From Streptomyces sp. MRC013 (GTDB lineage Bacteria > Actinomycetota > Actinomycetes > Streptomycetales > Streptomycetaceae), in contig NZ_CP094264.1 in NCBI RefSeq assembly GCF_023614235.1, positions 1,054,001 through 1,118,000 on the forward strand: a stretch of DNA of 64,000 nt, in the 5' to 3' direction. Below the pieces are notes generated by a model that saw only the letters and a program-made list of their open reading frames with translations, was not told the DNA's origin and did no database searches. The translations under genes were made by a program, and so were the position numbers. Within the stretch, counting starts at the first letter, position 1, and each line of letters starts with the position of its first letter. Below, piece after piece: positions 39,040 to 45,373 of this stretch.

Positions 39040-39180
39040 ACGCTCCGGGACGTCGCGGCGCTCGCCGGCGTGTCCACGGGCACGGTGTCCAACGTCCTCA
39101 ACCGGCCCGAGACTGTGAGGGAGACCACACGGACACGGGTCGAGAAGGCCATCGCCGAAGTCGGCTTCGTCCGGTCGGCC
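39040..39180 (+). pseudogene. LacI-type helix-turn-helix fragment
   Basis: The translation reads TLRDVAALAGVSTGTVSNVL followed by NRPETVRETTRTRVEKAIAE and VGFVR, the DNA-binding domain of a LacI-family repressor up to the hinge region. There is no start codon with a ribosome-binding site before it, and no ligand-binding domain follows. The frame continues into unrelated sequence and then an integrase tail, making one chimeric open frame (39070-39654). Confidence 0.7.
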
Positions 39181-39357
39181 GGCACAACACGGGAAGCCGC
39201 CCACTGGCGCCGGTCCGGCCACGCACAGTGGATCTTCACTCCGGCCGCCACCGGCTGGTACCCGAAGAAGGCGCCGGCCGAGGCGCATCCCGTTCCAGTG
39301 ACCGGCGGTCCCTTCCCCGGCGCCCCTGTGCGCGGCCGTAACGCCTCCGGGCGAGCC

Positions 39358-39654
39358 GAGGCGTGCTGGGTGCCGATCAAGGACCGGCTGCCCCGCCACG
39401 GCCTCCGTCACGGCCACCGCACGCTCATGGAGGAGCTGGGCACCCCCAAGGTCCTGATGGACGAGCGGATGGGCCACGAGGACGGATCGGTCGGCGCGCG
39501 GTATTCGCACGTGACCGACTCCCTGCGCGCCACGCTCATGGAACAGCTCACCGAGGTCTGGCACGCCTCCCTGGCCGACCGTCTCGCTCTCCACCCCCGG
39601 TCGCCGGTGCCGGTGCTCGACCGGCTGTTGCAGGAGTTCGCCCAAGCCGCGTGA
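39358..39654 (+). pseudogene. C-terminal remnant of a phage/AICE-type tyrosine recombinase
   Basis: The segment from ACWVPIKDRLPRHGLRHGHR onward is the end of a streptomycete integrase. HGLRH gives the catalytic His and Arg. The GHEDGSVGARYSHVT block holds the second His and the nucleophilic Tyr (R-Y-S-H-V-T). The tail HPRSPVPVLDRLLQEF is typical of integrases of actinomycete integrative elements. At least two thirds of the protein, including the first catalytic Arg, is missing. It ends 107 bases before an orphan tRNA-Pro 3' half, consistent with integrases that act on tRNA genes. Confidence 0.8.
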
Positions 39655-39744: not shown

Positions 39745-39760
39745 ACCTGGTACTTCACTG

Positions 39761-39802
39761 TCGGGGTGGCGGGATTTGAACCCACGACCTCTTCGTCCCG
39801 AA
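39761..39802 (-). other. orphan 3' half of tRNA-Pro (CGG), probable attachment-site scar
   Basis: On the minus strand 39802-39761 reads from the anticodon loop (TTCGGGA) through the anticodon stem, variable region and T arm (GGTTCAAATCC) to the acceptor end CACCCCGA of a prolyl tRNA. Upstream of it there is no D arm or 5' acceptor strand, so this is not a working tRNA gene. Identity confined to the 3' half is what integration of an element into tRNA-Pro leaves behind; pSAM2-type elements use such a site. Confidence 0.8.
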
Positions 39803-40175: not shown

Positions 40176-40985
40176 TCACAGACCCCCGTCCGGGGCGTGC
40201 GCCAGCGTCGCCGCCCGCTCCGCCATCGACCGCTTCCATTCCGTGCCGTCCTCGTCGGCGATCTCCCGCCACAGAGCCGCGGTAGCCAGACCGAGCGCGC
40301 TGAGTGCTTCCTGCGACGCACTGCGCCACGACGGGAACCGTCCGGCGAAGGTGAGCGCCGAGTCCACCGAGTGGCCGGCCTCCATGAGCCGCAGCGCTAG
40401 GGCGCCCGGGTCGATCCACGCCGCGCCCCGCGTCGGCCATGCCCAGTCCACGAGCCGGGCCCGATCGCCGACGATCAGGACGTTGTCCGGCGCGAAGTCT
40501 GTGTGCAGCAGCGTCGTCCCCGCGAACAGATGCAACGTGCCCGGCGGCGCGTAGTCCGCCCACCGGTCGACCGCGTCCTTGATGTCGACGTCGGTCGGGG
40601 CCGTGACCCCTTGCAGCTCGGTGAGCGCCGCTTCCACGAGCGGCAGATCCGCCGACCCGGGCGCGTAGTCGGCGTGCCGACCGTCAACCACCTCGTAGCC
40701 CAGCAGGCTCCAGCCGTCCAGCTCTAGATGCCAATACAGGCGCGGGCAGGACGTCGGCAGGTGCGGAGCCACAGCCGCCTCACGGCGCTGGGCGCTCACC
40801 TGCGGATGGTCGGCCGGGATGCCCTTCACGAAGACGCTGCCGCTGTCGGTCTCCAGGACCGAAGCGATGCCGGAATTCATGCCGCCGCTCACGGTCACCG
40901 CCTGATGTACGGCGCCGGTCTTGTCCGCAACGGCCTGGAGGACATCGTCGGGAAGCTGCTCGAAGGGGATACGGGTCATCGACAC
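40176..40985 (-). CDS. APH/choline kinase-like phosphotransferase downstream of the radical SAM unit
   Basis: The 269-aa protein has an intact kinase-like core: FVKGIP in the ATP-binding lobe, HTDFAPDNVL as catalytic loop with Asp and Asn in place, and LVDWAWP as metal site. It starts at GTG 40985 or ATG 40979. It follows the precursor-like peptide gene in the same direction after a 109-base gap, so it may belong to the same transcript. The substrate could be a small molecule, a peptide or an antibiotic; homology to aminoglycoside kinases alone does not show resistance. Confidence 0.82.
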   Translation of the reverse strand: MSMTRIPFEQLPDDVLQAVADKTGAVHQAVTVSGGMNSGIASVLETDSGSVFVKGIPADHPQVSAQRREAAVAPHLPTSCPRLYWHLELDGWSLLGYEVVDGRHADYAPGSADLPLVEAALTELQGVTAPTDVDIKDAVDRWADYAPPGTLHLFAGTTLLHTDFAPDNVLIVGDRARLVDWAWPTRGAAWIDPGALALRLMEAGHSVDSALTFAGRFPSWRSASQEALSALGLATAALWREIADEDGTEWKRSMAERAATLAHAPDGGL

Positions 40986-41094
40986 GCGCGGGTCCTTGGG
41001 TGCTCGGGGGAAAGGGGATGCCGCCCCGGCCAGGGTACGGCCGGGGCGGCATCAGGGGTGGAACGATCGGAAGCGGGTCGAGCCCGCCCCGGTC

Positions 41095-41307
41095 CTAGTA
41101 GGGCTGGTCGTCACCGGCCGAGCAGGAGCACTCGGCTCCCTCGGCGGCCGTGTCCAGGTCAGCGATGATCTGGAACTCGTTGTCGCCGATCGTCGCGGCG
41201 GGCAACGGCACCGGCAGCGCGCCGACCGGCCCGTCCGACGGGCGGCGGCCGATGGTGACCGCCACGGGCTGGCGCGGCGGGGCGAGGGCGGCAGTGGGCG
41301 GAGTCAT
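41095..41307 (-). CDS. 70-aa putative RiPP precursor peptide
   Basis: The peptide starts MTPPTAALAPPRQPVAVTIG and ends ADLDTAAEGAECSCSAGDDQPY when read in two parts. Its ATG overlaps the stop of the radical SAM gene (ATGA), so it is translated from the same message. It has a Pro/Val-rich N-terminal part, a helical acidic middle (EFQIIADLDTAAEG) and a C-terminal C60-S-C62 with Asp/Gly/Gln/Pro/Tyr, the usual leader/core layout. No signal peptide or domain is visible. The core position and the modification are inference. Confidence 0.7.
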   Translation of the reverse strand: MTPPTAALAPPRQPVAVTIGRRPSDGPVGALPVPLPAATIGDNEFQIIADLDTAAEGAECSCSAGDDQPY

Positions 41308-42467
41308 GATCCGTAACCTCCATGCTGGCAGTAGAGCTCTCGACGGTCCCCCGCCTCCTGGTAGAGCTTGGCAAGCGGCCGACACGTGCGACACGTGTCC
41401 ACCTTCGTGCAGCCAGAGCATCCACCGGTGCGGAGCTGTAGGGACTCGGCGATCACGCCGAGTCGGGTGAGGGCTTCGACGCCCTCGGTGACGAGGTTCA
41501 CGTTCGGGTCGCGGCCGACCTTGCAGACCGACGCGATGCCGTGCGGGTTCACGTGGAAGAACGTCCGCCCGGCATTGCAGCCCGTGAAGATGCTCCGGGG
41601 CTTGAGGTCTGCGTACGACTGCGAGGCGAGGGGATTCGCGCCGCCGTCGATCGTCGGCGACATGTTCGTGAACACCTCGTGGTGGAAGCCGTACGACTGG
41701 CACAGGGCCACCATCGCGTCGACCTCGTGGGCGTTGTCGTCCGACACGATCACGTTCAGTCGGACCGGTAGGCCGTCCTCGCGGGCGGCGTCCAGGCCCT
41801 TGATCCACCGGTCGTAGGCGCCGCGGTTCTTGGCGACCTTGTCGTACGTCTCGGCGGCCGCCCCATAGACGCTCACCGTCAGCCGGTACGGCCGGTGGCG
41901 GCGGAACAGGTCCCGGATCTGCGGCTTGCGCAGCGACGACCCGTTCGTGGAGACCTGGACCATCATGCCGAGCTGGTGGGCGTAGATGTACGCGGCGCCG
42001 AACTGCTTGTCGATCAGAGCCTCGCCGCCGGTGATCTGCAACCACAGCACGCCGGCCTCCTGCATCACCTGGAGGAGGCGCTGCTTGCCGTCCCAAGGCA
42101 GGCCGGAGAACTTCTTCTCGGGGAGGTAGCAGAAGTCGCAGTCGTAGTCACAGCCGAGGTTGATCTCCCACGAAGCCCGCCCGTACCCGTAAGCCGAGCG
42201 CTCGCGGACCAGGAGGACGTCGCCGGCCGGGGCTTCGGGCAGCTTGATACCCCACGCCTGTGCCGCCGCGTCGCCCACCCAGGCCGGGAGCACCAGACCT
42301 TCGCGGGTCGCGGTCGCCAGCTCCTCGTAGCGGACCTCGGGAATCCGTACGCCCGATGCCTGGCCCGGCCGCAGCAGGAGGTACTGGGCGAGGAACGGGC
42401 TCGCCACGAGCTGCGGTACATCGGTGCGATCCTCCTGTGCTGGTCTGGGACTCGTCGTTGTTGTCAC
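41304..42467 (-). CDS. radical SAM / SPASM-type protein, probable peptide maturase
   Basis: The start is GTG 42467, with GGAGG six bases upstream; a GTG at 42479 would add four residues. Numbered from 42467 (387 aa), the radical SAM cluster motif is C106-x3-C110-x2-C113 (NLGCDYDCDFCYLP) and the SAM-binding GGE motif follows at 147-149. Seven C-terminal cysteines (297, 315, 350, 353, 359, 362, 380, in CNAG, SVCKVG, GGCSGC, DTCRTC and LYCQHG) match a SPASM or twitch region holding auxiliary iron-sulfur clusters. Such enzymes modify ribosomal peptides. The coupled small gene just downstream is the natural substrate candidate. The extra 90-residue N-terminal domain could bind the leader. Confidence 0.88.
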   Translation of the reverse strand: MTTTTSPRPAQEDRTDVPQLVASPFLAQYLLLRPGQASGVRIPEVRYEELATATREGLVLPAWVGDAAAQAWGIKLPEAPAGDVLLVRERSAYGYGRASWEINLGCDYDCDFCYLPEKKFSGLPWDGKQRLLQVMQEAGVLWLQITGGEALIDKQFGAAYIYAHQLGMMVQVSTNGSSLRKPQIRDLFRRHRPYRLTVSVYGAAAETYDKVAKNRGAYDRWIKGLDAAREDGLPVRLNVIVSDDNAHEVDAMVALCQSYGFHHEVFTNMSPTIDGGANPLASQSYADLKPRSIFTGCNAGRTFFHVNPHGIASVCKVGRDPNVNLVTEGVEALTRLGVIAESLQLRTGGCSGCTKVDTCRTCRPLAKLYQEAGDRRELYCQHGGYGS

Positions 42468-42485
42468 GGCGACCTCCACGATTGG

Positions 42486-42686
42486 TCAGGCCGATGCGGC
42501 CTCAAAGCCGCGGGTGGTGTGCAGGTGGATCAGGGCTTCCAAGCGCCGAATGCAGCGGGTGCAGCACGTGAACGGCGCTTCCCCTGCCTCCGCGCTCTGT
42601 ATGGGCCCGATCCACAGGACGGGCACGTCTGTGGCTTCGCAGCGCCAGCACAGACCGATGACCCAGGCGCTATCCTTGGCGCTCAC
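42486..42686 (-). CDS. small Cys-rich protein, zinc-ribbon-like
   Basis: The 66-aa product (GTG 42686) holds LCWRCEATD and FTCCTRCIRRLE, two C-x-x-C pairs about 29 residues apart that could bind one zinc. It overlaps the preceding 28-aa frame by four bases (GTGA) and ends 18 bases before the radical SAM start. Similar small zinc proteins occur in streptomycete clusters with HTH-TPR regulators, but the function is unknown. Confidence 0.7.
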   Translation of the reverse strand: MSAKDSAWVIGLCWRCEATDVPVLWIGPIQSAEAGEAPFTCCTRCIRRLEALIHLHTTRGFEAASA

Positions 42687-42769
42687 CCGGTCTTGACCCC
42701 GAAGCAGAGGGCACCAAGCATCCCGACGAGGATCACCACATAGAGGACTTGTCTCCCCCGCTCAGCCAC
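42683..42769 (-). CDS. 28-aa single-span membrane peptide
   Basis: GTG 42769 lies inside the end of the ATP-binding protein gene (eight-base overlap). The short frame reads V-A-E-R-G-R-Q, a hydrophobic helix VLYVVILVGMLGALCFGV, then K-T-G and stop. That stop overlaps the next gene's GTG. The positive N-terminus and single hydrophobic span suggest a small membrane protein. Support comes from the chain of overlaps and its composition; there is no family evidence. Confidence 0.5.
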   Translation of the reverse strand: MAERGRQVLYVVILVGMLGALCFGVKTG

Positions 42770-43292
42770 CGGGGGCCTCCGCGTCGGCGTCGAGATTGGC
42801 CCACACGCGCTTGCCCCACCGCAGGGGCTCGACGCCCCACCGGCCGGGACACAGAGCCTCCACGATGAGCAGGCCGCGGCCGGACTCCGCCAGGTCCACG
42901 ACGGGGCGCAGGAGCAGCGCCGGCAGGATGCGGGACAGGTCCACCACAGCTACCTGGACGACGGACCGGTCCACCCGCGAGGCGGTCACCCGGATCGTGT
43001 CCCGCCGGCCGTGGTTCACGGCGTTGGCCACCAGCTCGGTCACGACGAGCTGCGCGGAGTCGGTGACGACCTCCAGGCCCCACAGCCGCAGCGCGCGGTC
43101 CACCAGGCGCCGCGCCGCACCGGCGGACTCCGCACGGCGAGGCAGGCACTCCGTGAACGCGGGCTTCCCGCGCACCAGGGTCTCGACCATCAGGCGCGCA
43201 CCGTTCCTCGTGAACCGGGGGGCCAGGCCATCGGCCGAGGCCGGGAGCGGCGCCTCTGCGGGGCAGGGCGGGGTGGACAGGGCCTTACGCAT
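42762..43292 (-). CDS. GHKL-type ATP-binding protein (RsbW-like)
   Basis: ATG 43292 overlaps the upstream gene's end by eight bases. The 176-aa protein carries the HATPase_c_2 motifs: N box QLVVTELVANAVNHG and the G1 region DLAESGRGLLIVEAL, followed by WGVEPL...GKRVWANL. Streptomycetes have many such stand-alone anti-sigma-factor-like ATPases, often beside HTH regulators and DUF397 proteins. The partner is unknown. It is part of the leftward chain leading to the radical SAM gene. Confidence 0.85.
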   Translation of the reverse strand: MRKALSTPPCPAEAPLPASADGLAPRFTRNGARLMVETLVRGKPAFTECLPRRAESAGAARRLVDRALRLWGLEVVTDSAQLVVTELVANAVNHGRRDTIRVTASRVDRSVVQVAVVDLSRILPALLLRPVVDLAESGRGLLIVEALCPGRWGVEPLRWGKRVWANLDADAEAPGG

Positions 43293-43620
43293 CGCCGTCG
43301 CCTTCCTCGCCGGTGGGCTCACGGGTAGCCGCCACCCCCAGGGAGACGAGGGCCGCGAGTCTGTCCGGCGGACACAGCAGACCCGGACCGTCGAGCGGCA
43401 CCACCCACCACGGCCCGGCCTTTTGAGGCTCAATCACATCCGGGGCCGGGACCAGCAGCAGCGCGCGGTAGGGGTGGCTCATGGAGCCCTCCACCTGCCA
43501 CGTCATGGCCACGGACGGGGGCACGAGGGCCGTGTAGGACCCCTGGTCCGGGAACCCGTCGCGGCTGTAGAAGACGGGACCGCCCTCCAGGCTCTCCGCG
43601 AGCGGCGGCGCGCACTTCAC
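43285..43620 (-). CDS. hypothetical protein of the radical SAM island
   Basis: The 111-aa product starts at GTG 43620, which overlaps the previous stop (GTGA). It contains TALVPPSVAMTWQVEGSMSH and ALLLVPAPDVIEPQKAGPWW, predicted beta strands with no transmembrane segment and no known catalytic motif. The tightly overlapping starts and stops argue that it is translated together with its neighbours. Confidence 0.65.
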   Translation of the reverse strand: MKCAPPLAESLEGGPVFYSRDGFPDQGSYTALVPPSVAMTWQVEGSMSHPYRALLLVPAPDVIEPQKAGPWWVVPLDGPGLLCPPDRLAALVSLGVAATREPTGEEGDGDA

Positions 43621-43838
43621 CGGGTCGTCAGGGCGAGCGCGGCGTGGACCAGCTCCTCGCGGATGATGACCGCCCCGAACAGGACACCCGGGCGCAGCCA
43701 CGCCGCGCCCCGGTTCTTCCACTCCGCGATGCCCTGCTGAATTGACGGGGCGGAAGGCAGGGGCCACGTCCCGTCTGTGAACGCCCTCTCACCGGCGGTC
43801 GCCACCCAAGTGATCGACTCCTCCACGCGCTGTTCCAT
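43617..43838 (-). CDS. small hypothetical protein, first gene of the leftward unit
   Basis: The 73-aa protein starts at ATG 43838 with GGGGG ahead of it; an in-frame start at 43889 would lie in the intergenic control region. It reads MEQRVEESITWVATAGERAF and later AAWLRPGVLFGAVIIREELV. I do not recognise it. It faces the HTH-TPR gene across 137 bases and begins the chain of overlapping genes. Confidence 0.65.
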   Translation of the reverse strand: MEQRVEESITWVATAGERAFTDGTWPLPSAPSIQQGIAEWKNRGAAWLRPGVLFGAVIIREELVHAALALTTR

Positions 43839-43975: not shown

Positions 43976-45373
43976 GTGACGACTTCTCGCGCGCGCAATG
44001 AAACTCTCCGACTCGCCTTGGAACAGGCGGGTCTGACGTACGACCAGTTCGCCGCAGACATCCGCCGCATCGCGGCCGAGGCCGGCGAGACTCTCCGCAC
44101 GAACCGGTCCGCCGTGGCCCACTGGGTCGCCGGCCAACCACCCTCCCCGGAAACCGCCGCCTACATTGCGGAAGCCCTGTCCCGTCGCCTCGGGCGGCAC
44201 CTCACCCCGGCCAATCTCGGCTGGCAGGTGCCCGAACATGGCAACGGGTCCGACGCCCGGCTTGGGTTGGGCATCGGACCCGATCCAGTGGACATCGTAC
44301 GGCGAATCGGGGAGGCCGACATCAACCGCCGAAAGATCCTTACGGGAGCCGCGTACAGCGTTGCCGCCGCTGCCCTGCCTCTTGGCCTCGCACAGGCGGC
44401 GGAAGCACAGGAGCGCGCAGCGGGCGCAGCAGGGCGCATGGTCGGGGAAGGCGACATCGACGCCGTCCGCTCCATGCTCAAGGCGTTCACCGCGATCGAC
44501 GAGCGCCAAGGCGGGCTGCACGGCCGTTCCGCCGTCATCCAGTGCCTCCGGACCGACGTCGCCGACCTCACCCGGGCCCGGTTCGCGAAGGAGGCCGTAC
44601 GCGGGGATGCCCTCACGGCCGTGGCTGCTTTCGTGTTCCTCGCCGGGTGGAAGGCCTACGACGCCGGGGAACACGGCCTCGCCCAGCGCTACTACCTCCA
44701 GAGCCTGGGCCTGACCCGGGAGGCCGGCAACCCGCTCCACGAGGCGTGGGTGCTGCGGATCATGGCCCACAACGGGATGGACATCGCCCGCCCCGAGCAC
44801 ACGCTGGACCTCGCGGACGCTGCCCTGTCCCTGGCCACGGGCCGCGCCGAGCCCGGGATACTGTCCATGTTCGTCGTCTGCCGGGCCCGCGCGCTCGCGG
44901 TCGCCGGCCGCGGCCCGGAGGCCGTCGCGGAGGTCCGCCGGGCCCAAGACCTCGCCATCCGGGGCGAGGACGACGTCCTGCCGTACTGGCTCACCCTGTC
45001 CGGCTCCCCCCGCGCGGCCGTGGCCTCCCACGCCGCGAAGGTGTTCCGTGCTCTCAAGGACCACCCCAACGCGGCCAAGCAGTACGCCTCCGCCGGGCGC
45101 GGCTACGGCGCCGTCGACCAAGGCGGCCTGTCCCGCATCACGGCCCTGTCCCTGGCCGCCCTGGGCAAGGAGCAAGCCGCCCAGGGGCACCTGGAGCAGG
45201 CGTGCACCACGTGGGACCAGGCCCTCACGTACTTCAGCGGGGTGTACTCCGATCGGGCGGTCAAGCAGGTCGGTTCCATTCGCCGGCAGCTCACCGTCTT
45301 CGAGCGGCGCGGCGTCGGCGCTGCCTCGCTCCTCAATGAGCGGGCCCGCTCCTGGCAGCTCACCCATGCCTGA
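43976..45373 (+). CDS. HTH transcriptional regulator with TPR-like C-terminus
   Basis: The 465-aa protein begins with an XRE-like helix-turn-helix (residues 10-55, LEQAGLTYDQFAADIR and TNRSAVAHWVAGQPP). After a linker with a hydrophobic Ala-rich patch (about 125-140), it has about 300 residues of tetratricopeptide-like helices (HGLAQRYYLQSLGLTREAGN, AEPGILSMFVVCRARALAV). This is the common Streptomyces regulator type found next to small ATPases and DUF proteins; it may sense a peptide or protein through its repeats. It likely controls the divergent unit. Confidence 0.85.
   Translation: MTTSRARNETLRLALEQAGLTYDQFAADIRRIAAEAGETLRTNRSAVAHWVAGQPPSPETAAYIAEALSRRLGRHLTPANLGWQVPEHGNGSDARLGLGIGPDPVDIVRRIGEADINRRKILTGAAYSVAAAALPLGLAQAAEAQERAAGAAGRMVGEGDIDAVRSMLKAFTAIDERQGGLHGRSAVIQCLRTDVADLTRARFAKEAVRGDALTAVAAFVFLAGWKAYDAGEHGLAQRYYLQSLGLTREAGNPLHEAWVLRIMAHNGMDIARPEHTLDLADAALSLATGRAEPGILSMFVVCRARALAVAGRGPEAVAEVRRAQDLAIRGEDDVLPYWLTLSGSPRAAVASHAAKVFRALKDHPNAAKQYASAGRGYGAVDQGGLSRITALSLAALGKEQAAQGHLEQACTTWDQALTYFSGVYSDRAVKQVGSIRRQLTVFERRGVGAASLLNERARSWQLTHA

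Follow-up and report, generated by a model that had tools for sequence, protein, structure and literature searches.

SkfB and SuiB are SPASM-type maturases of ribosomally synthesized and post-translationally modified peptides (RiPPs). In the part of the mycofactocin literature considered here, the maturase MftC acts on Tyr30 of the peptide MftA (PMC9012708), and in an excerpt on lasso peptides, precursors are phosphorylated by the kinase PadeK on a conserved C-terminal Ser and another is acetylated by AlbT (PMC9266682). Our study concerns a stretch of 64,000 nucleotides from Streptomyces sp. MRC013 (NZ_CP094264.1, positions 1,054,001 to 1,118,000; hereafter the window), in which a radical SAM/SPASM enzyme, a short peptide and a kinase-like protein are encoded one after the other on the minus strand. 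This trio was found to recur as a unit in which both the third gene and one residue of the enzyme follow the terminal residue of the peptide. No description of such a Streptomyces cassette of radical SAM enzyme, precursor peptide and phosphotransferase was found in open-licence PubMed Central, where the tail strings of the peptide returned only an unrelated EGFR paper.

A recurring unit of enzyme, peptide and kinase or GNAT

The enzyme (41304..42479, minus strand) comprises 391 aa when read from its first GTG (42479), a second GTG lying at 42467, and matches Pfam Radical_SAM with an E value of 3.9e-15. Its CX3CX2C site is formed by C110, C114 and C117, and seven cysteines follow in the C-terminal part (301, 319, 354, 357, 363, 366 and 384); all ten, previously noted from the window's sequence, were kept in 122 of 122 relatives thinned at 95 % identity, save position 354, which was kept in 121. 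The seven-Cys motif of SPASM domains is CX9-15GX4C...CX2CX5CX3C...C, and the pattern of the window enzyme, CX12GX4C...CX2CX5CX2C...C, is one spacing off this motif with its seven cysteines conserved. No NCBIfam model was matched at cut-off among the 25 matches listed of 51, and the nearest structures to the AlphaFold2 model of the enzyme were the RiPP maturases SkfB and SuiB.

The peptide gene (41095..41307, minus strand) encodes 70 aa with the tail ECSCSAGDDQPY, and its start overlaps the enzyme stop by four bases (ATGA), an overlap of the same length being present in 77 of 120 loci. The gene for the kinase-like protein (40176..40985, minus strand) starts 109 bases past the peptide gene; the protein has an intact APH-type catalytic loop, HTDFAPDN, as had been read from the sequence, together with a weak Pfam APH match and a conserved place 3' of the peptide. 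A peptide with the same tail was found 3' of the enzyme in 41 of 41 loci (the window and 40 relatives, one of which, L040, has it behind a frame-broken enzyme), and by pattern in 156 of 160. Of the remaining four, two are duplicates of a single enzyme with a broken frame, whose peptide lies further along, one is a fragment of the enzyme, and one stops at a contig end. In a filtered open reading frame count over the 41 loci, the families recurring near the enzyme were kinases (26), GNAT proteins (13), NsdA-family regulators (21) and HATPases (18), while the clusters listed contained no recurring family of proteases or transporters. What recurs is a three-gene unit of SPASM enzyme, peptide, and kinase and/or GNAT, an actinomycete family named by no library that we searched. 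The sequence-only reading of this locus, which had proposed a SPASM enzyme, an adjacent 3' peptide and a phosphotransferase as one conserved system, was right in this core idea; the two patterns it had set against itself, enzymes without an adjacent peptide gene and an unconserved peptide C-terminus, were not found.

Within the window's genus, 40 of 199 genomes had a relative of the enzyme, and a larger draw that overlapped with the first gave 72 of 392; the order gave 31 of 197 and the class 13 of 296, eight of those 13 belonging to the window's genus. One other family yielded 11 of 150 genomes and its order 24 of 249, and a further family six of 35. A draw across the phylum gave 15 of 296, of which six were from the genus and nine, outside the class, were partial core matches (E values of 6e-34 to 6e-26); a scan of viral contigs gave no relative. 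The system is patchy and is confined to the class in the sampled genomes. From each draw, loci were taken for at most 30 matches, with longer stretches for chosen places, and one protein set comprised 120 of 652. The nearest named genome among the best 80 of 190 relatives was Streptomyces somaliensis DSM 40738, with an enzyme 99 % identical to that of the window. In five loci (L031, L032, L039, L040 and L043), a large frame some 6 kb upstream of the enzyme looks by eye like a relaxase, which hints at mobile elements as carriers of some cassettes. One further locus, L332, has decayed: the end of the enzyme, the peptide and the start of the GNAT are gone, the remains are fused, and enzyme position 274 is Met.

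The peptide was matched by 95 clustered proteins at E≤1, the weakest two at 0.02, and is thus more than a chance open frame. Across the 122 thinned loci, the length of the peptides as called ranges from 26 to 78 aa (median 52), with some starts guessed. The genome of the window holds one enzyme and one peptide, a second weak match to the peptide profile being a histidine-kinase frame. Neither the peptide nor the kinase had an NCBIfam match at E≤0.1, and no NCBIfam family was matched at E≤1 by any of the 43 peptides searched of the 95 found. One relative, P0161, is called an ‘ATP-grasp-modified RiPP’ in UniRef, a name to which the NCBIfam models give no support.

Numbered from the terminal core residue over the 122 thinned loci, the tail reads D-D-[N/Q]-P-[Y/H/F/N], with P at −1 in 121 peptides, N or Q at −2 in 120, D at −3 in 116 and D at −4 in 113. 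It is this end that is kept, and not the ECSC end that had been put forward from the window's peptide. The cysteines divide the peptides into two classes, 90 with CxC and 32 with a single Cys, located at −8/−10 and at −6, respectively; Tyr, His, Phe or Asn is the last residue in 88 of the 90 CxC peptides, and one or two residues lie beyond it in 29 of the 32 others. As 32 of 122 peptides have only one Cys, a link between two cysteines is not the shared reaction, and the earlier proposal of such a crosslink was wrong in taking the Cys pair as the general target. When 15 peptides of seventy residues were compared in 105 pairs, differences in the final 12 codons stood at 3.5 %, 5.6 % and 19.4 % for codon positions 1, 2 and 3, which shows that the tail is under selection as protein.

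The third gene and enzyme position 274 follow the terminal residue

The third gene was tallied over 152 distinct loci. The kinase was present alone in 98 loci and together with a GNAT in four, all of them with Tyr at the terminal core position; a GNAT alone accompanied His in 36 loci, Phe in nine, Asn in two and Tyr in one; and two loci had neither, one with Phe and one with Tyr. None of the 102 kinase loci lacked Tyr, and 47 of the 48 GNAT-only loci had His, Phe or Asn. The phosphotransferase partner suggested from the sequence alone therefore holds as a conserved kinase 3' of the peptide, but not as a constant one, as a GNAT stands in its place in about a third of loci. This tally began with 160 loci holding 131 distinct enzymes, nine of which were replaced by longer loci. 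Three without a peptide call (L040, L179 and L185) were left out, as were five with stops or short sequences (L051, L087, L091, L093 and L180; four kinase with Tyr and one GNAT with His, all fitting). The addition of 50 further loci gave 164 rows and the removal of 12 enzymes present twice gave 152. The third genes of L064, L076 and L124, which are frame-broken, and the peptides of L231 and L261 were assigned by eye; L231 has a weak GNAT match at +1509, beyond the distance limit.

The most telling cases are sets of sister loci in which Tyr has become Phe, with only the hydroxyl lost, together with loss of the kinase. This was observed in L191 beside L055, and in L147 and L222 (Phe, kinase gone) beside their sisters L192, L221 and L224 (kinase and GNAT). 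In the four loci with both genes (L192, L193, L221 and L224), all with Tyr, GNAT and kinase both lie 3' of the peptide; these may be intermediates between the cassette types, or they may carry out two tailoring steps.

The enzyme also follows the tail. Of its 391 positions, 274 was the most strongly associated with Tyr versus non-Tyr peptides (0.77 bits, the next position reaching 0.56), with Ser paired with Tyr in 87 of 88 loci, Thr with His in 23 of 23 and Gln with Asn in two of two. Later loci fitted in 20 of 20 cases: 14 with Ser, Tyr and kinase (one alignment doubtful), five with Thr, His and GNAT, and one with Gln, Asn and GNAT. These were what remained of 31 later loci after removing eight identical to earlier ones and three that were broken (L317, L328 and L332), and, being 59–98 % identical to earlier enzymes, they are relatives rather than independent draws; L333 and L334 are both truncated, the latter with a poor alignment at residue 274. 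Ser-274 is kept in L190 and L227, which have Tyr without a kinase, indicating that position 274 follows the peptide and not the third gene. In the model, position 274 falls just past a predicted strand (266–271), within a region of low confidence (272–300), and a position of the terminal residue in the active site is accordingly an inference.

The kinase family has the catalytic-loop and metal-binding residues of APH and protein-kinase-like proteins. Among 81 kinases, the H, T, N and second D were kept in 80 (one row being gapped) and the Lys in 79, and the catalytic D was D in 76 and E in four. The GNAT was above the Pfam cut-off in three of three proteins examined.

A candidate pathway and its alternatives

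We consider it probable that the cassette is a minimal RiPP-type pathway, with the enzyme working at the peptide's last core residue or right next to it and the kinase phosphorylating Tyr. An RRE-like (RiPP recognition element-like) N-terminal domain of the enzyme would hold the peptide leader, and the tail would enter the enzyme barrel, where the terminal core residue would be read via position 274. Radical chemistry at or next to that residue, within D-D-[N/Q]-P-[Y/H/F/N], may then be followed by phosphorylation of the phenol of a terminal Tyr by the kinase. With His, Phe or Asn tails the kinase is absent, and the GNAT that is usually there instead probably provides an alternative tailoring step. 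Any release or export of the product would fall to other genes, as neither a protease nor a transporter was seen to recur around the enzyme. That the kinase is never seen without Tyr, and Tyr is sometimes seen without the kinase, is the asymmetry to be expected if Tyr is the acceptor. A two-trait Markov fit likewise preferred dependence between kinase and Tyr (likelihood ratio 36.8, four degrees of freedom, nominal P value 2e-7).

Several results weigh against this pathway. Tyr occurs without a kinase in L190 (GNAT only) and L227 (neither gene). A quickly built tree of 122 enzymes shows seven changes of the kinase and five of Tyr, which are few independent events; independent pairs were concordant in three to four cases and opposed in none (P=0.125–0.25, not significant), although with fewer than six pairs such a test cannot reach 0.05. 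The rates of the Markov fit lay at their bounds, and Fisher's test ignores kinship. Ser-274 and Tyr each change five times on the tree, with three to four concordant pairs and none opposed (P=0.125–0.5, not significant; tree built with position 274 included). Position 274 varies with Phe tails (Val in five, Thr in two, Ala in one and Ser in one) and is Ala in one Tyr locus. The window kinase scored 18.9 bits against Pfam APH (PF01636), under the cut-off of 23.2, which was reached by none of three kinase relatives, and when the kinase profile was run against PDB sequences, the only matches were weak ones to kinases (best E 0.0088). No RRE match to the enzyme was found in Pfam or NCBIfam. The model has a β-β-β-α-α arrangement at residues 24–76, and the alignment rows to SkfB and SuiB begin at residue 22–23, but by the aligner's own warning the part before residue 94 was hardly tested, so that an RRE-like domain is no more than a model-based suggestion. 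Modification of the peptide by the enzyme is very probable, and is argued from co-occurrence and covariation.

The alternative that fares best concerns the bond rather than the cassette. The Cys sulfur could be joined to a carbon of a tail Asp or of the terminal residue in a thioether, as in ranthipeptides or sactipeptides, with the position-274 code merely positioning the tail. Such a product is a realistic possibility, albeit short of probable. Cys–Asp thioethers are formed by the SPASM enzymes QhpD and PapB, a tail Cys is present in 122 of 122 peptides (two in 90, one in 32), an acid is present at −4 or −3 in all 122, and in CxC peptides the first Asp lies four residues from the second Cys. 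However, the distance of the Cys varies by class (−8/−10 versus −6) while D-D-[N/Q]-P-X stays fixed, and the enzyme position that co-varies best tracks X and not Cys.

A mycofactocin-like reaction, in which the C-terminal residue is oxidatively decarboxylated and perhaps then joined to its neighbour by a C–C bond to give a small redox or signal molecule, appears unlikely. It would suit the 88 of 90 CxC peptides in which Tyr, His, Phe or Asn comes very last, the dependence of position 274 on that residue, and the action of MftC on Tyr30 as given in the mycofactocin excerpt cited above (PMC9012708). It is at odds with the one or two residues that follow the Tyr in 29 of 32 single-Cys peptides, and the enzyme scores 58.6 bits where the maturase cut-off is 265.

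We also doubt that kinase and GNAT, instead of helping to build the product, shield the producer by inactivating it once finished, as aminoglycoside-modifying enzymes do. The APH-like catalytic loop, the GNAT scores over the Pfam cut-off in three of three and the swapping of the two genes at the same place are compatible with that role, whereas both enzymes occur together in four distinct loci, no transporter was found to recur near the enzyme, and kinase and GNAT track a single peptide residue. The tie between the kinase and the peptide Tyr favours tailoring over the self-protection raised in the sequence-only reading, although the same phosphate could serve both purposes. It is least credible that the modified peptide is an internal signal, not secreted, for the divergent NsdA-family TPR-like regulator, as most loci have no such regulator within 3.5 kb upstream and NsdA-type regulators are common in Streptomyces, despite an NsdA-family gene adjoining the window's cassette, similar genes upstream in 43 of 143 loci and the lack of a recurring exporter near the enzyme.

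If the phosphorylating RiPP-type pathway is correct, it represents an undescribed three-gene peptide pathway, carried by 72 of the 392 genomes sampled from the genus and small enough to fit on one plasmid. By the kinase-for-Tyr rule, the sequence of the peptide would predict its tailoring chemistry, and the rule for position 274 would offer a case of substrate reading by a SPASM enzyme that can be probed through single changes. More tentatively, it may constitute a new RiPP class, with a SPASM enzyme acting on the last core residue, a one-residue code at position 274, phosphotyrosine made by the kinase, and GNATs acting on the His, Phe and Asn versions.

Neighbouring genes and comparison with known systems

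The genes upstream of the trio were counted in 143 loci with 3.5 kb upstream, including the window and its near twin L071 (S. somaliensis DSM 40738). The four small proteins that had been included in the system are not part of its core. Genes similar to the 66-aa Cys-rich frame (42486..42686) were present in five loci, to the 28-aa hydrophobic frame (42683..42769) in three, and to the 111-aa and 73-aa frames in six and four, respectively. The latter two frames overlap (43285..43838) and correspond to one open frame in L071 (97 % over 184 aa), and they are therefore not two independent small proteins; the gene is either split in the window or was sequenced differently. An anti-sigma-factor-like HATPase (42762..43292; Pfam HATPase_c_2, 37.0 bits), with similar genes upstream in 48 loci, is probably regulatory and not core. 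These frames all lie on the minus strand, and the chain of frames and overlaps previously described was present: 43617–43838 overlaps 43285–43620 by four bases, 43285–43620 overlaps 42762–43292 by eight, and the 28-aa frame overlaps 42762–43292 by eight and the Cys-rich gene by four. The gap of 18 bases previously noted ahead of the enzyme is correct for the GTG at 42467 and becomes six bases from the GTG at 42479. A divergent neighbour on the plus strand (43976..45373), also outside the core, encodes an NsdA-family regulator (NCBIfam NF053720, 334 bits against a cut-off of 75).

On the other side of the cassette, 48 bases (39755–39802) match, at 98 % identity, the 3' half of a tRNA-Pro(CGG) that stands intact at another site in the genome. 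Adjoining this fragment, a frame at 39070–39654 begins like a LacI-type DNA-binding protein (36.2 bits) and ends like a phage integrase, the latter match being sub-threshold (19.6 against 27.1 bits), and together these look like an old insertion scar adjoining the cassette. ARAGORN, and Rfam at its gathering threshold, gave no match; two Rfam matches below that threshold (E 0.033 and 0.67) were taken as chance, the former covering the tRNA fragment.

A comparison with described systems found partial likenesses. Prokaryotic viperins with a kinase share a radical SAM core (PADLOC pVip, E 1e-14, residues 103–252) and a kinase neighbour, but were rejected, as NCBIfam NF038283 scored 44.2 bits against 180 and the window enzyme has SPASM cysteines and a peptide partner. 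The ATP-grasp-modified RiPPs were likewise set aside, no precursor model having been matched by the 43 peptides searched in NCBIfam at E≤1. Ranthipeptides and sactipeptides share a SPASM enzyme and a Cys-bearing core, and the NCBIfam maturase models for StsB, SkfB and AlbA were under cut-off for the enzyme (56.9/625, 38.6/300 and 32.5/850 bits). SkfB and SuiB are nearest in fold, yet only 15–17 % identical; their peptides differ from that of the window cassette, which has a kinase or GNAT partner. Mycofactocin resembles the cassette in having a SPASM enzyme that acts on a C-terminal Tyr, as the excerpt on MftA and MftC relates (PMC9012708), but MftC was rejected as an identity, with TIGR03962 scoring 58.6 bits against 265, a D-D-[N/Q]-P-X tail in the window's peptide and a kinase or GNAT as the third gene. 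The paeninodin system, likened here by description, differs in phosphorylating Ser and not Tyr and in using lasso machinery, with no radical SAM enzyme in the excerpted description; in both systems, as far as that excerpt goes, a tailoring kinase accompanies a conserved hydroxyl residue at the precursor's end (PMC9266682).

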